The notes beneath the pieces are model-generated. The model did no database searches. It worked only from the letters and a program-made list of their open reading frames with translations, and had not been told where the DNA came from. The position numbers and the translations under genes are program-made. Shown here piece after piece: positions 42,543 to 48,746 of a stretch of DNA of 48,746 nucleotides. Source of the DNA: Flavobacteriaceae bacterium (GTDB lineage: Bacteria; Bacteroidota; Bacteroidia; Flavobacteriales; Flavobacteriaceae); NCBI GenBank assembly GCA_012959395.1, contig DUDG01000001.1, positions 1 through 48,746 of the forward strand, given 5' to 3'. Numbering within the stretch: position 1 is the first letter of the stretch; every line of letters starts with the position of its first letter.

Positions 42543-42615
42543 GGTACCTTAGCTCAGTTGGTAGAGCAAAGGACTGAAAATCCTTGTGTCCCTGGTTCGA
42601 TTCCTGGAGGTACCA
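42543..42615 (+). tRNA. tRNA-Phe (anticodon GAA)
   Basis: The acceptor stem is GGTACCT / AGGTACC with discriminator A at 42615. The D arm is AGCTCAGTTGGTAGAGCA, the anticodon loop CTGAAAA (anticodon GAA at 42576-42578) and the T arm CCTGGTTCGATTCCTGG. CCA is not encoded: ACAT follows position 72, unlike tRNA-Leu in this window. Its last bases form the left copy of the direct repeat that bounds the insertion downstream. Confidence 0.97.
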
Positions 42616-42617
42616 CA
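42604..42617 (+). repeat. Left direct repeat (attL-like) in tRNA-Phe 3' end
   Basis: CTGGAGGTACCACA spans the 3' side of the T stem and acceptor stem of tRNA-Phe plus two bases. It is identical to 43468-43481. Confidence 0.85.
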
Positions 42618-42621
42618 TTTT

Positions 42622-42652
42622 AACCCTATGAGTCCTTGACCTATAGGGTTTT
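42622..42652 (+). terminator. Possible replacement terminator for tRNA-Phe inside the insert
   Basis: AACCCTAT (42622-42629) pairs with ATAGGGTT (42643-42650) across a 13-nt loop, followed by TT and then A. It is a modest hairpin placed 6 nt after the tRNA, so the insertion seems to have brought its own stop for the tRNA transcript. Confidence 0.55.
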
Positions 42653-42669
42653 ATGTTTCTATAAACCTA

Positions 42670-42692
42670 TTTGTGTAAAGTTTTGTGTAAAG
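42670..42692 (+). repeat. Tandem TTTGTGTAAAG repeats, left end of insert
   Basis: Two exact copies of TTTGTGTAAAG lie at 42670-42680 and 42682-42692, a 12-bp period. The core TGTGTAAAG returns several times at the other end of the insert, which suggests binding sites for a recombinase or accessory protein. Confidence 0.8.
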
Positions 42693-42793
42693 ATAAATGG
42701 TTCTATTTGTATATTTAGTGATTCTTGTGGAAAAGTATGTAACATTTAATTAAACACTTCGTCATAATTACAAACCTATAAAATAAAAAAACA

Positions 42794-43258
42794 ATGAAAA
42801 TTAAATTACTTATTCTGACTATTATGACGATATCATGGTCATACTCTCAAAAGAATTTCAAGAAATCAGACATCTATGGTAAATACAAATTAGAACTAAA
42901 TCTTACAGATGTGGTTAAAAGTGAAAACGATGACTTGAATTTGTTAGAAAAAATAATTGTAACAAGTATTACAAACTCAATAGATAGGGTTTCAAGTGAA
43001 TATGTAAATATCACATTTGATTTCAAAAACAACAACTCTCTACTCGTTAGTGTAAAAGTAGAAGATGAAAAAGAAGAAAATGAATATATCCGATGGAAAA
43101 CAAACAACAACAAAATATATTTTGATGATTCGGGTAATGACCATATAAATGTTAAAATGAACAATGGGGAAGGATATTGGGTTTTGGAAAATAAAAACCT
43201 GGTAAAATACAATGATGATGGAACTAAAGTAAATGGAATTTCCCTTATTAGGATTTAG
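42794..43258 (+). CDS. Unknown secreted protein, lipocalin-like layout, cargo of the insert
   Basis: This 154-residue protein has a signal peptide (residues 1 to about 19, ending SWSYSQ). The mature part is rich in Asn, Asp and Lys and looks like a small beta-barrel: IYGKYKLELN near the start, ITFDFKNNNSLLVSVKVEDE, IRWKTNNNKIYFDDSGND and GYWVLENKNLVKYNDDGTKV. This is the shape of lipocalin-like proteins that report or bind small ligands, but I recognise no specific family. It is the only convincing gene between the two tRNA repeats and is followed by the repeat-rich right end. Confidence 0.7.
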   Translation: MKIKLLILTIMTISWSYSQKNFKKSDIYGKYKLELNLTDVVKSENDDLNLLEKIIVTSITNSIDRVSSEYVNITFDFKNNNSLLVSVKVEDEKEENEYIRWKTNNNKIYFDDSGNDHINVKMNNGEGYWVLENKNLVKYNDDGTKVNGISLIRI

Positions 43259-43345
43259 TATCACTGATGTGGTACAAAGTGAAAGATATTATCTTTTATT
43301 AAAGAAAAATTTGGAAAAACTTTCAGGTTTAAGTTATTCTACGAA

Positions 43346-43415
43346 CTTTACACAGAAGAAATTACTTTACATAGTGTGTAAACTAAACGGATATAACTTT
43401 ACACAATGTGTAAAG
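43346..43415 (+). repeat. Cluster of CTTTACACA / TGTGTAAAG half-sites, right end of insert
   Basis: Five half-sites lie here: CTTTACACA at 43346-43354, the imperfect pair CTTTACATA / TGTGTAAAC at 43365-43373 and 43375-43383, and the perfect inverted pair CTTTACACA-a-TGTGTAAAG at 43397-43415. They share the core found in tandem at the left end (42670-42692). Confidence 0.8.
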
Positions 43416-43467
43416 TCTATTGATATAAAATATTCAATACTAGATAGTTAAATGAAGGGTATTAGTA

Positions 43468-43481
43468 CTGGAGGTACCACA
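43468..43481 (+). repeat. Right direct repeat (attR-like)
   Basis: CTGGAGGTACCACA is identical to the tRNA-Phe 3' end at 42604-42617. Similarity stops within one or two bases on either side. Confidence 0.85.
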
Positions 43482-43504
43482 AACCCCCTTCAAGGGGGTT
43501 TTTT
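43481..43504 (+). terminator. Intrinsic terminator, probably the original one of tRNA-Phe
   Basis: AAACCCCC-TTCAA-GGGGGTTT is followed by more T. It begins at the last base of the right repeat, so before the insertion it would have stood immediately after tRNA-Phe, just as the tRNA-Leu terminator stands 3 nt after its tRNA. Confidence 0.9.
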
Positions 43505-43534
43505 GATTATTTATCGTTAATTTCATTAACTTTA
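43503..43534 (+). promoter_or_regulatory. Flavobacterial-type promoter for the YwaF-like gene
   Basis: TTG at 43503-43505, a 21-bp spacer, then TAACTTTA at 43527-43534 (one mismatch to TAnnTTTG). It lies 24 nt before the ATG at 43558. Confidence 0.55.
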
Positions 43535-43557
43535 AAAAAATTTATATAAAATTTATT

Positions 43558-44274
43558 ATGGATTATGCTATAGAAATTTTAAGTTCTGAATGGATAACAA
43601 CTTCATTAAGTAGCATAGCTTTTATCCTGTTTATTCTATATATAGGTAAAATTAGTTCTGAAAACAATAGAATTAAGTTTATTAAGATTATTGCCTTAAT
43701 AATGATATTATTCACTGTTACTAATCATGTTACTCATTTAATTAATGGAACCTGGACATTAGACAAACAGCTTCCAGTACATCTTTGTGGAATTTCTGCC
43801 TTGATCTGTTGTGTAATAATGTTTATACCAGAAAATAAAAGACAATTTCTTTTTGAGTTTCTTTTTTATTTCGGAATTATAGGTGGGACAATGTCTATAC
43901 TAACTCCTCTAATTGATAATCAAGATAGCGAAAATGAAATCTTTTTCTACATACAGTTTTTTGTAAAACACTCAATTATTATAGCTTTCCCTATTTACTT
44001 AAGGAATCATTTGAATATGGAACTAAGAACATACTCATGGCTAAAAGCATTTATTGCCATAAATGTATTGCTAGTTATAATAATGATTATAAATTCTTCT
44101 ATTGGTTCAAATTATATGTATTTAGCTCATGTTCCAATGGATTCAGCAGGAAATGTAGTAAAAAATCCATTAATTATAATTAATGATTGGCCATGGTATA
44201 TATTAACATGGGAGCCAATTGTATTTACACTAATATTAATTACATATTATTTTTCTAAACCAAAAAAGGCTTAA
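43558..44274 (+). CDS. YwaF / TIGR02206 family membrane protein
   Basis: This is a 238-residue integral membrane protein with about six or seven helices. The family signature is the histidine-containing LPVHLCGISALI block near residue 77, with NHVTHLINGTW before it. Further on are YFGIIGGTMSILTPLI and a helix ending in a conserved NDWPWYILTWEPIVF segment. Members are of unknown function. A promoter precedes it, and the next gene, for a lipoprotein, starts 28 nt after its stop. Confidence 0.85.
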   Translation: MDYAIEILSSEWITTSLSSIAFILFILYIGKISSENNRIKFIKIIALIMILFTVTNHVTHLINGTWTLDKQLPVHLCGISALICCVIMFIPENKRQFLFEFLFYFGIIGGTMSILTPLIDNQDSENEIFFYIQFFVKHSIIIAFPIYLRNHLNMELRTYSWLKAFIAINVLLVIIMIINSSIGSNYMYLAHVPMDSAGNVVKNPLIIINDWPWYILTWEPIVFTLILITYYFSKPKKA

Positions 44275-44302
44275 TTTTTTTAACTACTAATAGAAAATAA
44301 AG

Positions 44303-44812
44303 ATGTTACTTAAATTTCGTTTACTAAGCTTAATTATTATTTGTGGTATTTTTATAAGTTGCAATAATCAACAAAACAAAAGTGCTTCTGTAGATAATTA
44401 TAAAAAAATAGATTATTATTCTGATTCAATTAATACTGTTAGAATAGACAATATCAGTTTAACTACTATAAATGTTTTAAATAATTGGATTGAATATCAA
44501 GAGTTGAAAGAAGTAATTAGTTCATTAGAAAATAATGAATTCTCATTCTTTAAGGATAATAAAGAATATATTAGTAGATTTTTTGATGGAATTAAGAGAA
44601 GCACGCCAAAATCAATTAATAAACCAGGTATTATCGCTAGAATTTCTGTCTTAGAAACAAAATTTTTAATACTTGAAAGCTATTTTACATCAAATATTAT
44701 TGATGAAAAACAAAAGAAAAACAGAATAAATGATGTATTGTCTGCTAATTCGAATTTTATATATCAGATAAATAAGTTAATTGAAAGATCAAATCAAAAA
44801 ATTGAGGACTAA
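44303..44812 (+). CDS. Unknown lipoprotein
   Basis: This 169-residue protein has a lipoprotein signal (lipobox IFISC, Cys about residue 20, followed by NNQQNKS). The mature part is mainly helical, with charged heptad-like stretches (WIEYQELKEVISSLENNEF, ISVLETKFLILESYF). I recognise no family. It probably shares a transcript with the YwaF-like gene. Its stop overlaps the stop of the convergent TPR gene through CTAA. Confidence 0.65.
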   Translation: MLLKFRLLSLIIICGIFISCNNQQNKSASVDNYKKIDYYSDSINTVRIDNISLTTINVLNNWIEYQELKEVISSLENNEFSFFKDNKEYISRFFDGIKRSTPKSINKPGIIARISVLETKFLILESYFTSNIIDEKQKKNRINDVLSANSNFIYQINKLIERSNQKIED

Positions 44813-45495
44813 TCTTTCTTCTTTTGAGCATTCAATGCATTTTTACTAATCACTGCCAAATTAAAATTTGGTGCTATCGTTAATGCCTGATCCATTATAG
44901 CAATTGCTGCATCTATGTTTTCTTCCTTATTTTCCTTAAATTTTACCAAACCTTTTAAATACAAAAAAGCTGCTTTCATAGGAACCTGATATTGACCTTG
45001 AGACTCATAATAAGTTCTCATGACATCATTATTTGAATTTGCTATTCCAAAAGTTATATTTTTAGTAGCTCCCATCAGATCATCTAATTGAATTTTTATA
45101 TCAGCTAATTCATATGCAATTAGTGGATTAGGTTTTCTTCTAAACAACTCCTCATAATGAACAATAGATCTATCAAGCTGATTTAAAAATTGAAGTGAAA
45201 TTGCTTTTACTTCAACTGCCATATCAGAATCATTTTTATTGCTTTCAATACCAATTGTATTTAAAGCTTGAACATGTCTCCCTTCATTCATATATAATAC
45301 CGCAAGGGTATCAGCTCTAGCTTGACTTGGATCTAATATGTTTAAGTGAGTTAAACCATTTATTACTCCTTGAATGTCTCCTTGAGATTTCATTTGCTCA
45401 TAATATTGTTTATAATGATTTAATAGAGAATTATTATCCTGACCATAACTAAAGAAAGTAATAGAGAATAATAATAGGATGTATACATTTCTCAT
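44809..45495 (-). CDS. Exported TPR protein downstream of the porin
   Basis: This 228-residue protein has a signal peptide (1 to about 18, ending FFSYGQ) and tetratricopeptide-like helices across the mature part (HYKQYYEQMKSQGDIQGVINGLTHLNILDPSQARADTLAVLYMNEGRHVQALNTI, later AIAIMDQALTIAPNFNLAVISKNAL). It is periplasmic by prediction. It begins 43 nt after the porin stop, so the two are probably one operon, and a role in assembly or function of that porin is possible. Confidence 0.8.
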   Translation of the reverse strand: MRNVYILLLFSITFFSYGQDNNSLLNHYKQYYEQMKSQGDIQGVINGLTHLNILDPSQARADTLAVLYMNEGRHVQALNTIGIESNKNDSDMAVEVKAISLQFLNQLDRSIVHYEELFRRKPNPLIAYELADIKIQLDDLMGATKNITFGIANSNNDVMRTYYESQGQYQVPMKAAFLYLKGLVKFKENKEENIDAAIAIMDQALTIAPNFNLAVISKNALNAQKKKD

Positions 45496-45538
45496 AATTT
45501 TATAATTTAATAATGACGAAACTAATAATAATTAATAT

Positions 45539-46774
45539 TTAAAATGCAATTTGTACTAAAAATTCTCCATAAGTTATTTCATTTCCTGAATCAAAATCTA
45601 CTTTATAAGCACCCAATTGCATTTTTAGATTATTTCCTTTCAAATATTTAGAAATACCTAATCCATAACTATCAAATGATTGTAATAGTGATTCTGTATT
45701 CATATCAAATTCTGGATTAGCCATTTCATATCTAAGATCTACTCCAAATCCATTTTGAATCATATATCCTAAATGAACATTGTAACTATCTCCTAAAATC
45801 AGGTATTCACTAATTTGTTGTGAAATAAAAATATTAGATGCATTTTCATCGGTATACACCTGATTTAGGCTACTTGCATATGAATCTGCATATTCAAACA
45901 AAAATGAAAAACCTTTGTACTTTAATAATAAATCAAAAAATAATTGAGAATAATCAGGTAAATTGTAATTTCCACTACTATCATATAATAAAAAATCTCC
46001 ATGGCCATCACCCATACTATTGCTAACTTCAAAGCTTTTAGAATATGCAAGCCCTAATTGTATTTTTAAGTTTTCTTCACCGATTAAATCAACTGCAGTA
46101 ATTTCATTTCCATCGCTAAAGGCTCCTAATGGATACAGATTCAGCCTAGATCCTAATTTGACACCTCCAATATCTATATTTCTTAAATTCTCTCCAAATG
46201 AATCTCCTCCGTCACCTGAAGTAACTGCTAGTTTTGGTTCTATAATAAATTTATCTCCAAAACTGCTCTCAATAAATATTCCAAACTCTTCACCACTTTG
46301 AGTATAGTTTTGACTAAGCAGCCCTCTATCAGTAAAACGCAACGCATTATCATCGTGAACCATCTCTAAATTATTATGTTGTACCTGCCTTTGACCAAAA
46401 TAAATTGTAGTTGAATTGTCTAGTTGATATTCAATAAAAGCTTCTACTAATGGCTTTGAAATACTATAATCCATCTGAATTGTAAAACTAATCTTTTCCT
46501 TAAACGCTCTTCCTTCAATAAATAAATTTGAGTTTTTAAACTTAAACTGTCTTGATATTTCCTTATACGTAACTTCCTGTGCATTGGACAGAATATCATT
46601 GTAAATATATGCTGGTCTTATAAAACCATAAACATTAAAAAGATAATTACCTTCATTAAAAGAAAATGAAATTCCATCTCCTAAATCATAACTTGAATTA
46701 TTTATTTGGTTTTCCTGTGCATTTACAATAACTGAAAAACATATAATAATAATTGTTATTAGACTTTTTTTCAT
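45539..46774 (-). CDS. Outer-membrane porin, phosphate-selective porin O/P family
   Basis: This 411-residue protein has a signal peptide (1 to about 19, ending VNAQ). A 16-strand-type barrel pattern follows: GISFSFNEGNYLFNVYGFIRPAYIYND, LFIEGRAFKEKISFTIQMDYS, TIYFGQRQVQHNNLEMV and the ending YGEFLVQIAF with a C-terminal Phe. OprP/OprO-like members in Bacteroidota have varied substrates. The gene is divergent (77-nt gap) from a carboxylate transporter gene, so uptake of an organic acid is as likely as phosphate. Confidence 0.82.
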   Translation of the reverse strand: MKKSLITIIIICFSVIVNAQENQINNSSYDLGDGISFSFNEGNYLFNVYGFIRPAYIYNDILSNAQEVTYKEISRQFKFKNSNLFIEGRAFKEKISFTIQMDYSISKPLVEAFIEYQLDNSTTIYFGQRQVQHNNLEMVHDDNALRFTDRGLLSQNYTQSGEEFGIFIESSFGDKFIIEPKLAVTSGDGGDSFGENLRNIDIGGVKLGSRLNLYPLGAFSDGNEITAVDLIGEENLKIQLGLAYSKSFEVSNSMGDGHGDFLLYDSSGNYNLPDYSQLFFDLLLKYKGFSFLFEYADSYASSLNQVYTDENASNIFISQQISEYLILGDSYNVHLGYMIQNGFGVDLRYEMANPEFDMNTESLLQSFDSYGLGISKYLKGNNLKMQLGAYKVDFDSGNEITYGEFLVQIAF

Positions 46775-46851
46775 TTGTTAATTTATCTATATTATAATTT
46801 TATTTATTTAATCTAAATAATTGATCAAATATCATTAATTTTTAATTAATT

Positions 46852-48318
46852 ATGAATTTATCAAAAAAAATTATTGGTTTATTTCTAGGTCCTATAGTAT
46901 TTACTTTAATATTATTATTCTTTAATCCTGAGGGACTAAACTATGAAGCCAAATGTATATTAGCATCCACTATGTGGATGGCTATATGGTGGGTTACTGA
47001 ATGTGTGCCAATAGCTGTAACTGCCTTACTTCCGATTGTTCTTTTTCCGCTTTCTGGAGGTTTAGATCTCCAATCGACAACTGCCTCTTATGGGCACAAG
47101 TTAGTTTTCTTATTTGTTGGTGGATTTATTATTGCTCTAGCAATTGAAAAATGGAATCTACACAAAAGAATAGCCTTAAATATTATTAGAATAACAGGAT
47201 CAAAAAAATCAAAAGTTATTCTAGGATTTATGATTGCTACTGCATTTTTATCAATGTGGATTTCAAACACAGCAACTTCAATTATGATCCTACCAGTAGG
47301 ATTAGCAATTATCGCACAACTAAAAGATGATCCAAATACAATAGAAAATGAAAATGTAGTTTTTGGTAAATCTATTATGATAGCAATAGCTTATAGTGCA
47401 TCTATTGGTGGTATGGCTACATTAATTGGAACACCTCCAAATATGATTTTTGCAGGAGTTGTTGAAGAAAGCTATGGAATAAAAATTAGTATGTTTGACT
47501 GGATGAAATTTGGTATTCCAATAAGTGCTACCCTACTAATTATTTGTTGGTTATATCTAACTAAAGTTGCTTACAAATTTTCTAATGAAGAATTCTCAGA
47601 AGGAAGAAAAGAAATATTAAACCAAATTAAGCTATTGGGTAAATTTTCATATGAAGAATCTAGAGTTTTAATTGTATTTACTCTAACAGCAATTGCATGG
47701 GTTTTAAGAGGTTATCTTGAAACAATTATACCAACAATTGATGATACCATAATCGCTATTTCATTTGCTGTAATTTTATTCATTATTCCAACCAAAAAAA
47801 ATTCGGTTGATAAAACTTTACTGGTATGGAAAGATACTGTTAAATTACCGTGGGGCATATTACTATTATTTGGTAGTGGCATGGCTATAGCAAGTGCATT
47901 TACAAAAAGTGGACTTTCACTTTGGATTGCTGATCTACTTATAAACCTTGATGGTGTCCCATTAATACTTGTAATTCTTACAATTGTTACAACTATTAAT
48001 TTACTTACTGAACTGACATTAAATATGGCTACAACAGCAATGCTACTCCCAATATTGGTAACAATTGCTCTTGCAATTAATGTTCATCCATATTTTTTAT
48101 TAATTAGTGCAACCCTAGCAGCATCATGTGCATTTATGTTGCCTACTGCAACTGCTCCAAATGCCGTAGTCTTTGGTTCAGGACTATTAAAAATAGAAGA
48201 TATGTTTAAAAAAGGAATTTGGATGAATATAATATCAATAATTATAATTACTCTTATTGTATATTATTTCCTACCATCAATATTTGATGTTTCTACTGAA
48301 CTAATTCCGATAAATTAA
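46852..48318 (+). CDS. Sodium/dicarboxylate symporter, DASS (SLC13) family
   Basis: This is a 488-residue inner-membrane transporter with about 11-12 helices. The two substrate/sodium motifs are present: SNTATS (about 142-147, with TLIGTPPNMIF further on) and the matching C-terminal pair LTELTLNMATTAMLLPI and PTATAPNAVVFGSG. The start MWMAIWWVTECVPIAVTALLP is typical. It should import di- or tricarboxylates with sodium, which suits a marine cell. Its stop shares TTAA with the convergent nitronate monooxygenase gene. Confidence 0.94.
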   Translation: MNLSKKIIGLFLGPIVFTLILLFFNPEGLNYEAKCILASTMWMAIWWVTECVPIAVTALLPIVLFPLSGGLDLQSTTASYGHKLVFLFVGGFIIALAIEKWNLHKRIALNIIRITGSKKSKVILGFMIATAFLSMWISNTATSIMILPVGLAIIAQLKDDPNTIENENVVFGKSIMIAIAYSASIGGMATLIGTPPNMIFAGVVEESYGIKISMFDWMKFGIPISATLLIICWLYLTKVAYKFSNEEFSEGRKEILNQIKLLGKFSYEESRVLIVFTLTAIAWVLRGYLETIIPTIDDTIIAISFAVILFIIPTKKNSVDKTLLVWKDTVKLPWGILLLFGSGMAIASAFTKSGLSLWIADLLINLDGVPLILVILTIVTTINLLTELTLNMATTAMLLPILVTIALAINVHPYFLLISATLAASCAFMLPTATAPNAVVFGSGLLKIEDMFKKGIWMNIISIIIITLIVYYFLPSIFDVSTELIPIN

Positions 48319-48746
48319 TACTTGTCTAAAAGTTTCGATTGCTCTTTTATGGATTCCTTAAATTCATTGGTAATTCTATCAACTAATTCTTGAACAGGAA
48401 GATCATCAGAAATATTTGTAACTCCTTGACCTGCAGACCAAATGGTGCTCCATGCTTTTGCTTCACTTTTTGCAGCATCAAGTTCCTTTCCAAAATCCAT
48501 TTTAGCTTTTCTTCCCCACATTTCTTCAGTTATTCCCATAGATTCTAGGCTAGGTCTTAAAAAACTAGCAGGGACACCAGAAACTGCAGCTGTATATACA
48601 ATATCAGTTGCTCCTGAATCTATAATCATTTGTTTATAATCCTCTGGAGCTCTACTTTCTTTTGTGTTTATAAATCTAGTTCCCATATATGCTATATCTG
48701 CTCCCATCTGTAATGCTGAAGCTACATCCCTGCCATTACTTATACA
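48315..48746 (-). CDS. Nitronate monooxygenase, C-terminal part (N-terminus beyond window edge)
   Basis: The frame is open to the window edge, leaving about 143 C-terminal residues. SNGRDVASALQMGADIAYMGTRFINTKES is the phosphate/FMN-binding end of the TIM barrel of 2-nitropropane dioxygenase-like flavoproteins. The helical tail follows (GMTEEMW-type SMGITEEMWG, then WSAGQGVTNI). The active-site histidine lies upstream, outside the window. The family oxidises nitronates; some members are enoyl reductases, which cannot be excluded here. Confidence 0.88.
   Translation of the reverse strand, partial: CISNGRDVASALQMGADIAYMGTRFINTKESRAPEDYKQMIIDSGATDIVYTAAVSGVPASFLRPSLESMGITEEMWGRKAKMDFGKELDAAKSEAKAWSTIWSAGQGVTNISDDLPVQELVDRITNEFKESIKEQSKLLDKY

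Follow-up and report, generated by a model that had tools for sequence, protein, structure and literature searches.

An 864-bp insert at tRNA-Phe in a Flavobacteriaceae bacterium: probably an integrase-deleted island that keeps its attachment sites and one gene

The insert and its attachment sites

A tRNA-Phe gene lies towards the right-hand end of the window, by which we mean the whole 48,746-nucleotide stretch of Flavobacteriaceae contig DUDG01000001.1 that was analysed. The gene is followed by a short insert that ends in a second copy of the tRNA 3' end, and beyond that copy stands a segment of different gene content, called segment A here. The features of the locus are given below in order; the genomes and loci with which they are compared are described in the sections that follow.

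42543–42616, plus strand: tRNA-Phe (GAA), the integration target (ARAGORN; Rfam RF00005, 69.8 bits)
42604–42616, plus strand: attL core, the 13 bp CTGGAGGTACCAC (14 bp with the next A), identical to the 3' end of tRNA-Phe
42622–42650, plus strand: terminator-like hairpin of the left end (inverted repeat; similar, by inspection, in G016, L092 and L100)
42671–42692, plus strand: two direct arm-type sites TTGTGTAAAG (P' arm), 12 bp apart, at +55 and +67; distances identical in L092
42725–42734, plus strand: third arm site TTGTGGAAAA, degenerate (2 mismatches), at +109; exact in L092 at +110, beside the integrase start codon
42737–42742, plus strand: putative integrase-start remnant, ATG directly followed by TAA (alignment with L092)
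42794–43258, plus strand: cargo gene, 154 aa, signal-peptide-like N-terminus (ORF; no known family by hmmscan)
42961–43276, plus strand: part of the cargo that matches a broken copy in G198 at 84% DNA identity, extending 18 bp past the stop codon
43320–43480, plus strand: right end of the element, agreeing with that of L093 at 146 of 161 positions
43346–43415, both strands: right-end arm sites at 43346 (minus), 43365 (minus)/43374 (plus) and 43397 (minus)/43406 (plus), with 0 to 2 mismatches
43404–43480, plus strand: 77 bp identical to the start of contig C41 of the same assembly (G000:C41, L033), where the flank of the relatives follows
43468–43480, plus strand: attR core CTGGAGGTACCAC, which with TAGTA at 43463–43467 forms the imperfect inverted repeat TAGTAC-TGGAG-GTACCA
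43481–48746, no strand assigned: segment A, with TMEM164-like, lipoprotein-like, TPR, porin-like and DASS transporter genes and an NMO fragment (Pfam and flank comparison; lipoprotein-like and porin-like labels by inspection)

The original prediction placed a perfect 14-bp copy of the tRNA-Phe 3' end 864 bp downstream of the gene, and both positions proved exact: CTGGAGGTACCACA stands at 42604–42617 and 43468–43481. Even when two mismatches are allowed, these are the sole matches in the window (dinucleotide-shuffle mean, 0.01). The exact 14-mer is also limited to two copies in the assembly (1.49 Mb, 46 contigs, 67.7% complete), which at that completeness speaks against a repeat common in the genome, the outcome named beforehand as contrary to the prediction. 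The first 13 bases, CTGGAGGTACCAC, have a third copy at bases 65–77 of contig C41, and we therefore take the true shared core to be 13 bp and the 14th base to be incidental. By inspection, the inverted repeat formed by the right core and the preceding TAGTA is what would be expected of an attP core. Across genome_contigs, 20 stretches contain TAGTACTGGAGGTACCAC, 18 from Bacteroidota and 2 from Chloroflexi that look like chance matches; this sequence has no match in IMG/VR, and the wider pattern DCTGGAGGTACCAC is present in 39 of 397 family genomes.

The repeats that flank the cores would most naturally be read as arm sites of tyrosine integrases. Those on the right lie at −122, −103, −94, −71, and −62 from the core and make up one single site and two inverted pairs. 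The element has three exact copies of TTGTGTAAAG, where shuffled sequences average 0.01 and reach 1 at most; matches with at most one mismatch number five against a mean of 0.19 (most, 3; 500 shuffles in each case); at up to two mismatches there are nine against a mean of 2.2, and the best shuffle also reached nine. Direct repeats spaced by 12 bp (at least 9 bases, at most one mismatch), differing in sequence from one another, occur in 10 of 17 left ends, these being the tRNA-Phe elements among the loci examined and not a random sample, as against none of six empty sites in the genus and none of six tiny tRNA-end duplications. Among the first 13 of these left ends, eight have the 12-bp repeat; 60 shuffles gave an average of 0.32 and never more than 1, and the remaining spacings between 10 and 16 stayed close to or at chance level. 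The left arms of G014 were missed by the script and recognised by eye only.

No Pfam or NCBIfam family matches the cargo protein above cut-off; judging from its N-terminus, the protein is probably secreted. The proposal that the insert holds one secreted-protein gene thus stands as regards the one main ORF of 154 aa, its putative secretion being a reading of the N-terminus alone. Three further ORFs of at least 50 aa overlap it, two on the minus strand (112 and 74 aa) and one on the plus strand (72 aa, with no Pfam match above cut-off). Neither the ORF list of the insert nor the Pfam comparison of the main ORF contains a recombinase gene, as had been predicted. A single-sequence structure prediction of the cargo gave a mean pLDDT of 34.9; no relative was found in IMG/VR (14 pattern matches, none confirmed), and one Lactococcus phage, in two records, matched weakly (E 0.4).

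Matches to the cargo protein at an E value of at most 0.01 are found in 35 of 397 family genomes, that of the window included, and many of them are weak. The best other match, in G198 of another genus, is 77% identical in amino acids and 84% in DNA over 319 aligned positions; this copy lies at a contig start and is broken by two stops. The gene, or its recent source, is therefore common to genera. Similarity between the window and G198 stops at 43276, just short of the right-end module, and since the 1,798 bases around the G198 copy contain no exact core fragment or arm site, the cargo is not tied to the tRNA-Phe attachment site. None of the 14 cargo-homolog loci L228 to L241 carries an exact GGAGGTACCAC or arm site.

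The tRNA-Phe site in related genomes

We surveyed the site with a 1,241-base query against 22 genomes of the genus, all of which matched. Weak matches over the tRNA part in G003, G011, G013, and G020 were taken as other tRNA genes and scored as having no site, and G008, whose second tRNA-Phe contig is cut, was counted once, through contig C145. So scored, 13 sites are empty, four are occupied (in the window genome, G016, G014, and G009), one is cut off 23 bp past the core (G019), and four genomes show no site. At the empty sites, tRNA-Phe and its terminator lead directly to the gene for gluconate-dehydrogenase subunit 3 (Pfam name), with the C-terminal motif 76 to 85 bp on. The search for strains with tRNA-Phe and no insert, which the original prediction proposed, was thus rewarded in 13 of 22 genomes; the contrary outcome that it named, the same 864 bp in all relatives and no empty site, is not the pattern of this genus.

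The other occupants differ from the window's and from one another. The element in G014 measures 6.2 kb; a tyrosine recombinase of 531 aa (Pfam) adjoins its left end, and it has genes that by inspection are resolvase-like, cation-efflux-like, and DNA-methylase-like. In G009 the left end runs into an integrase-like start (by inspection), where its contig stops; a comparable right end lies on a separate contig. G016 (L034, G016:C6) carries after tRNA-Phe a decayed 741-bp insert with a broken DUF1572 gene; it further contains a left hairpin resembling that of the window element and a stretch of 46 bp that nearly duplicates (98%) the tRNA end. Other cargo at the site, for which a search had likewise been proposed, therefore exists in the form of these three elements; none with the window's arms was found in the genus. 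Empty sites, differing elements in relatives, and arm sites at both ends together give good support to site-specific integration at tRNA-Phe.

A separate observation concerns the target itself. Seven genomes of the genus (L038 to L041, L045, L050, and L051) have a tRNA-Phe with GCAGTTCGATTCTGCGA, as against CTGGTTCGATTCCTGGA in the others. All seven GCAGTTCGATTCTGCGA-type sites are empty, whereas four of the 11 CTGG-form sites, the window's included, are occupied; the variant may escape integration, the numbers being small.

The two ends of the insert have their closest counterparts at two other loci. In L092 (JAQWFW010000020.1, a Flavobacteriaceae MAG), tRNA-Phe is followed by a 1,062-bp element with the same arm motif at +55, +67, and +110 on the left and at −123, −104, −71, and −62 on the right. 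These distances agree with the window's to within 1 bp at seven sites, three left and four right; L092 has no −94 site and has an extra two-mismatch site at −232. It contains an integrase-like frame of 101 codons, which matches the L100 integrase at an E value of 4e-15 in a search with two query proteins that detects near relatives only, and in which Arm-DNA-bind_5 falls just under cut-off (20.4 versus 22.6 bits); one reverse-strand lipoprotein-like gene follows. L092 looks like a relative half-way to the stripped state. The left end of the window element can be aligned with it up to and including the integrase start codon (42737–42739, ATG) and no further; TAA follows directly. The right end is 91% identical (146/161) to that of L093 (CAJJCA010000019.1), upstream of which different island sequence extends for 3.2 kb to what is apparently the end of the contig; a search of L093's genome found no tRNA-Phe left end to pair with it. 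Because 42617–42739 matches L092 and roughly 43320–43480 matches L093, the insert looks like an island without its middle.

Other arrangements were seen at tRNA-Phe in the course of the comparison. G187 (L122, G187:C3:428000-430302) has cores at 569 and 2182 that bound a 1,613-bp element without an integrase; each end of this element has a pair of GGTTGCTC arms spaced by 12 bp, and its one protein, of about 266 aa, looks secreted. In G170 (L123, G170:C1:2873500-2887500), four frames with a shared YD-repeat-like (Rhs-like, by inspection) start lie downstream of tRNA-Phe, the cores being 3.0, 6.0, and 3.0 kb apart with different small genes between them. G347 (L124, L201; G347:C1:303500-328500) holds a row of four tRNA-Phe cores at intervals of 5.8, 6.6, and 11.9 kb, an arrangement that would suit three islands stacked at one site. 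At L098 and L108, left-end-like hairpins and one arm-like motif occur directly past an island right end (by inspection), as if further stripped elements were stacked there. Two genomes, G155 (G155:C1, L206) and G298 (G298:C1, L197), contain arrays of tRNA-Phe 3'-end copies 91 to 149 bp apart with one 360-bp gap, in which a CCCCGA...TCGGGG stem precedes the copies after the tRNA and the G155 gap holds a GIY-YIG-like gene (by inspection); we rejected these repeats as comparable elements, for they are a different thing. Core spacings of 132 to 179, 177, 243, and 415 to 420 bp in other genera were set aside as duplicated tRNA 3' ends or tandem tRNA-Phe genes.

Origin, flank, and possible movement of the insert

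We consider it probable that the 864-bp insert is a CIME-like, integrase-deleted derivative of a tyrosine-integrase island at tRNA-Phe. The original prediction had offered two origins, and we favour the remnant of a larger island because the left end follows the integrase-bearing type as far as the start codon and the right end matches a larger island; no direct evidence emerged for the other, a satellite moved by an integrase encoded elsewhere. Under the favoured origin, the tyrosine integrase of the parent island would have inserted the parent into tRNA-Phe, and the two ends would once have made up an attP whose strands were exchanged within CTGGAGG. Deletion or recombination would subsequently have removed or swapped the interior and left the cargo gene beside the old integrase promoter region. 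Self-movement would have been lost, and excision may be possible by an integrase with GTGTAAAG arm specificity; carriage in tandem with a newcomer element is the conceivable alternative. Against deletion stands the fact that no complete, intact parent carrying GTGTAAAG arms was found, L093 being visible in part.

The published description of CIMEs, as far as its accessible part goes, has integration and transfer genes lost, attL and attR kept, and newcomers joining in tandem (PMC5704250). The core repeat and arm sites of the window element suggest that both attL and attR have been retained; its integration gene is gone, the left end ceasing to follow the integrase type at the start codon, and tandem accretion would be possible, as that part of the description has it for CIMEs. 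The differences are that the window element measures 0.86 kb, has one gene, and belongs to another phylum, whereas CIMEs were described for streptococcal ICE and IME families, and that its parent is not known to be an ICE or IME. Conjugation or phage genes, which a strict CIME would imply for its parent, are hypothetical for the parent here, of which L093 shows a part. Compared with tRNA-targeting elements in general, the insert has the empty site in relatives and lacks an integrase of its own.

An origin without any integrase, in which the tRNA end was duplicated by chance or slippage, or in which short repeats underwent the RecA-independent exchange reported for the microcin H47 island of Escherichia coli, strikes us as very improbable. 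Plain tRNA 3'-end duplications with terminators do exist in other genera (L117 to L120, 132 to 179 bp), and the H47 island is mobile without its own recombinase in the portions of the reports available (PMC3191183, PMC5426353). The window insert, however, has arm sites at conserved distances that are missing from the tiny duplications and the empty sites, an attP-type half site TAGTAC at its right end, and ends homologous to elements with integrase sequence. According to the same portions of those reports, the H47 island resembles the insert in being a small island that is flanked by direct repeats and lacks a recombinase of its own, and differs in its 13 kb, its extensive imperfect repeats, and its experimentally shown excision and integration.

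The integrase-deleted origin that we prefer is compatible with a further reading, which we think unlikely, namely that the insert is a non-autonomous one-gene cassette still moved in trans by the integrase of a resident or incoming island. Core and arm sites are kept at both ends, L092 (1,062 bp) and G187 (1,613 bp) similarly have one main gene and no intact integrase at the same tRNA, and the right end is present twice in the assembly with differing DNA from the first base after the core. Set against this, the arms are no better conserved than their surroundings in the comparison with L093 (changes at 6 of 52 positions within arms and at 9 of 109 outside them), and no element seen in the genus combines them with other cargo, G016 sharing the left hairpin region only. 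The exact double arm TTGTGTAAAG was found in one of 397 family genomes, the window's own; allowing up to three mismatches, the pattern matches 52 of the 397, one of which besides the window's has two mismatches and the rest three, and a reversed-pattern control matches more (about 70 of 397). Judged from these pattern matches, no helper integrase was found by arm pattern in the 397 genomes. The tyrosine-recombinase search that the prediction called for used the G014 integrase and came back empty from the assembly, which is 67.7% complete; such a query reaches near relatives only, since it also missed G009, and so no helper integrase was found there within that reach. The companion search for further copies of the ends succeeded for the right end, whose 77 bp recur at the start of C41, and gave the window's genome alone for the exact left double arm. 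As to a viral helper, TTTACACAATGTGTAAAG and TGTGTAAAGTTTTGTGTAAAG each match one IMG/VR contig; because the matches lie inside coding frames without visible attachment structure, they were taken as chance and the candidate was rejected.

The repeated right end bears also on what lies beyond the insert, for it implies either stacked elements, or a mix of strains, or a misjoined contig. The window and C41 diverge at the first base after the 13-bp core. On C41 an asparaginase gene comes next, followed by the gluconate-DH3 gene, in the same order as G016, and segment A is not the flank seen at tRNA-Phe in relatives. There is accordingly a considerable chance, which we put somewhat below even, that the insert is real and that the window is misassembled or strain-mixed at 43480, with C41 as the true flank; this is compatible with the other readings. 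The porin gene of segment A is unmatched in 21 other genomes of the genus, many of them incomplete, and has its closest match, at 54%, in another genus (among 319 family genomes); the left end of segment A has no 12-bp-spaced arms. An overlap of 77 bp is moreover the k-mer size that assemblers commonly use last. Against misassembly or a strain mix stand the G+C content of segment A, which resembles its surroundings, and the fact that islands do stack at one attachment site in Flavobacteriaceae, as the row of four cores in G347 exemplifies.

Known elements and significance

The Flavobacteriaceae islands at tRNA-Phe (G014, 6.2 kb; L100, 6.4 kb; and G009) share the target and the core of the window element. 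L100 and G009 have the TAGTAC half site at the right end, and left arms 12 bp apart were found in both by script and in G014 by eye. Unlike the window element, G014 and L100 carry a complete integrase at the left end and G009 what looks like the start of one, and the arm sequences differ. MITEs and CALINs, in the part of the account available to us (PMC11389934), likewise keep their ends, lose the enzyme, and are mobilised in trans, which for the window element is a possibility; they belong to transposase or integron systems, whereas the window has island attachment sites. Marine satellites of the PICMI and tycheposon type are similar, in the excerpts consulted, as small elements adjoining a conserved gene. 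The PICMI model, as given in its excerpt, requires an integrase, AlpA, a primase, and fis (PMC10803314). The window insert consists of one main 154-aa gene without known family, contains none of those four, and has tRNA-Phe as its target. Titles and abstract openings in the literature yielded no description of this element or of one-gene islands in Flavobacteriaceae.

The window element is of a known kind, small and well marked, and its movement in trans is possible. The one-gene elements L092 and G187 leave room for a positive reason behind the form as opposed to plain decay. We regard it as rather improbable, more so than movement of the single insert in trans, that Flavobacteriaceae harbour a class of one-gene, integrase-free cassettes with full attP, the window element, L092, and G187 among them, that are shuttled by the integrases of other islands; were it true, single secreted-protein genes would travel like integron cassettes, but with island-type attachment sites.

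The locus is a compact and easily read example of an island apparently reduced to its attachment sites and one gene. From it the arrangement of attachment sites in a Flavobacteriaceae island family can be sketched, with a core half site, a left pair of arms spaced by 12 bp, and one single and two paired sites on the right, and a helper integrase is therefore findable by its arm sequence. If such remnants do move in trans, single genes could spread while no mobility gene is in sight, and programs that look for islands by way of an integrase gene would overlook them.
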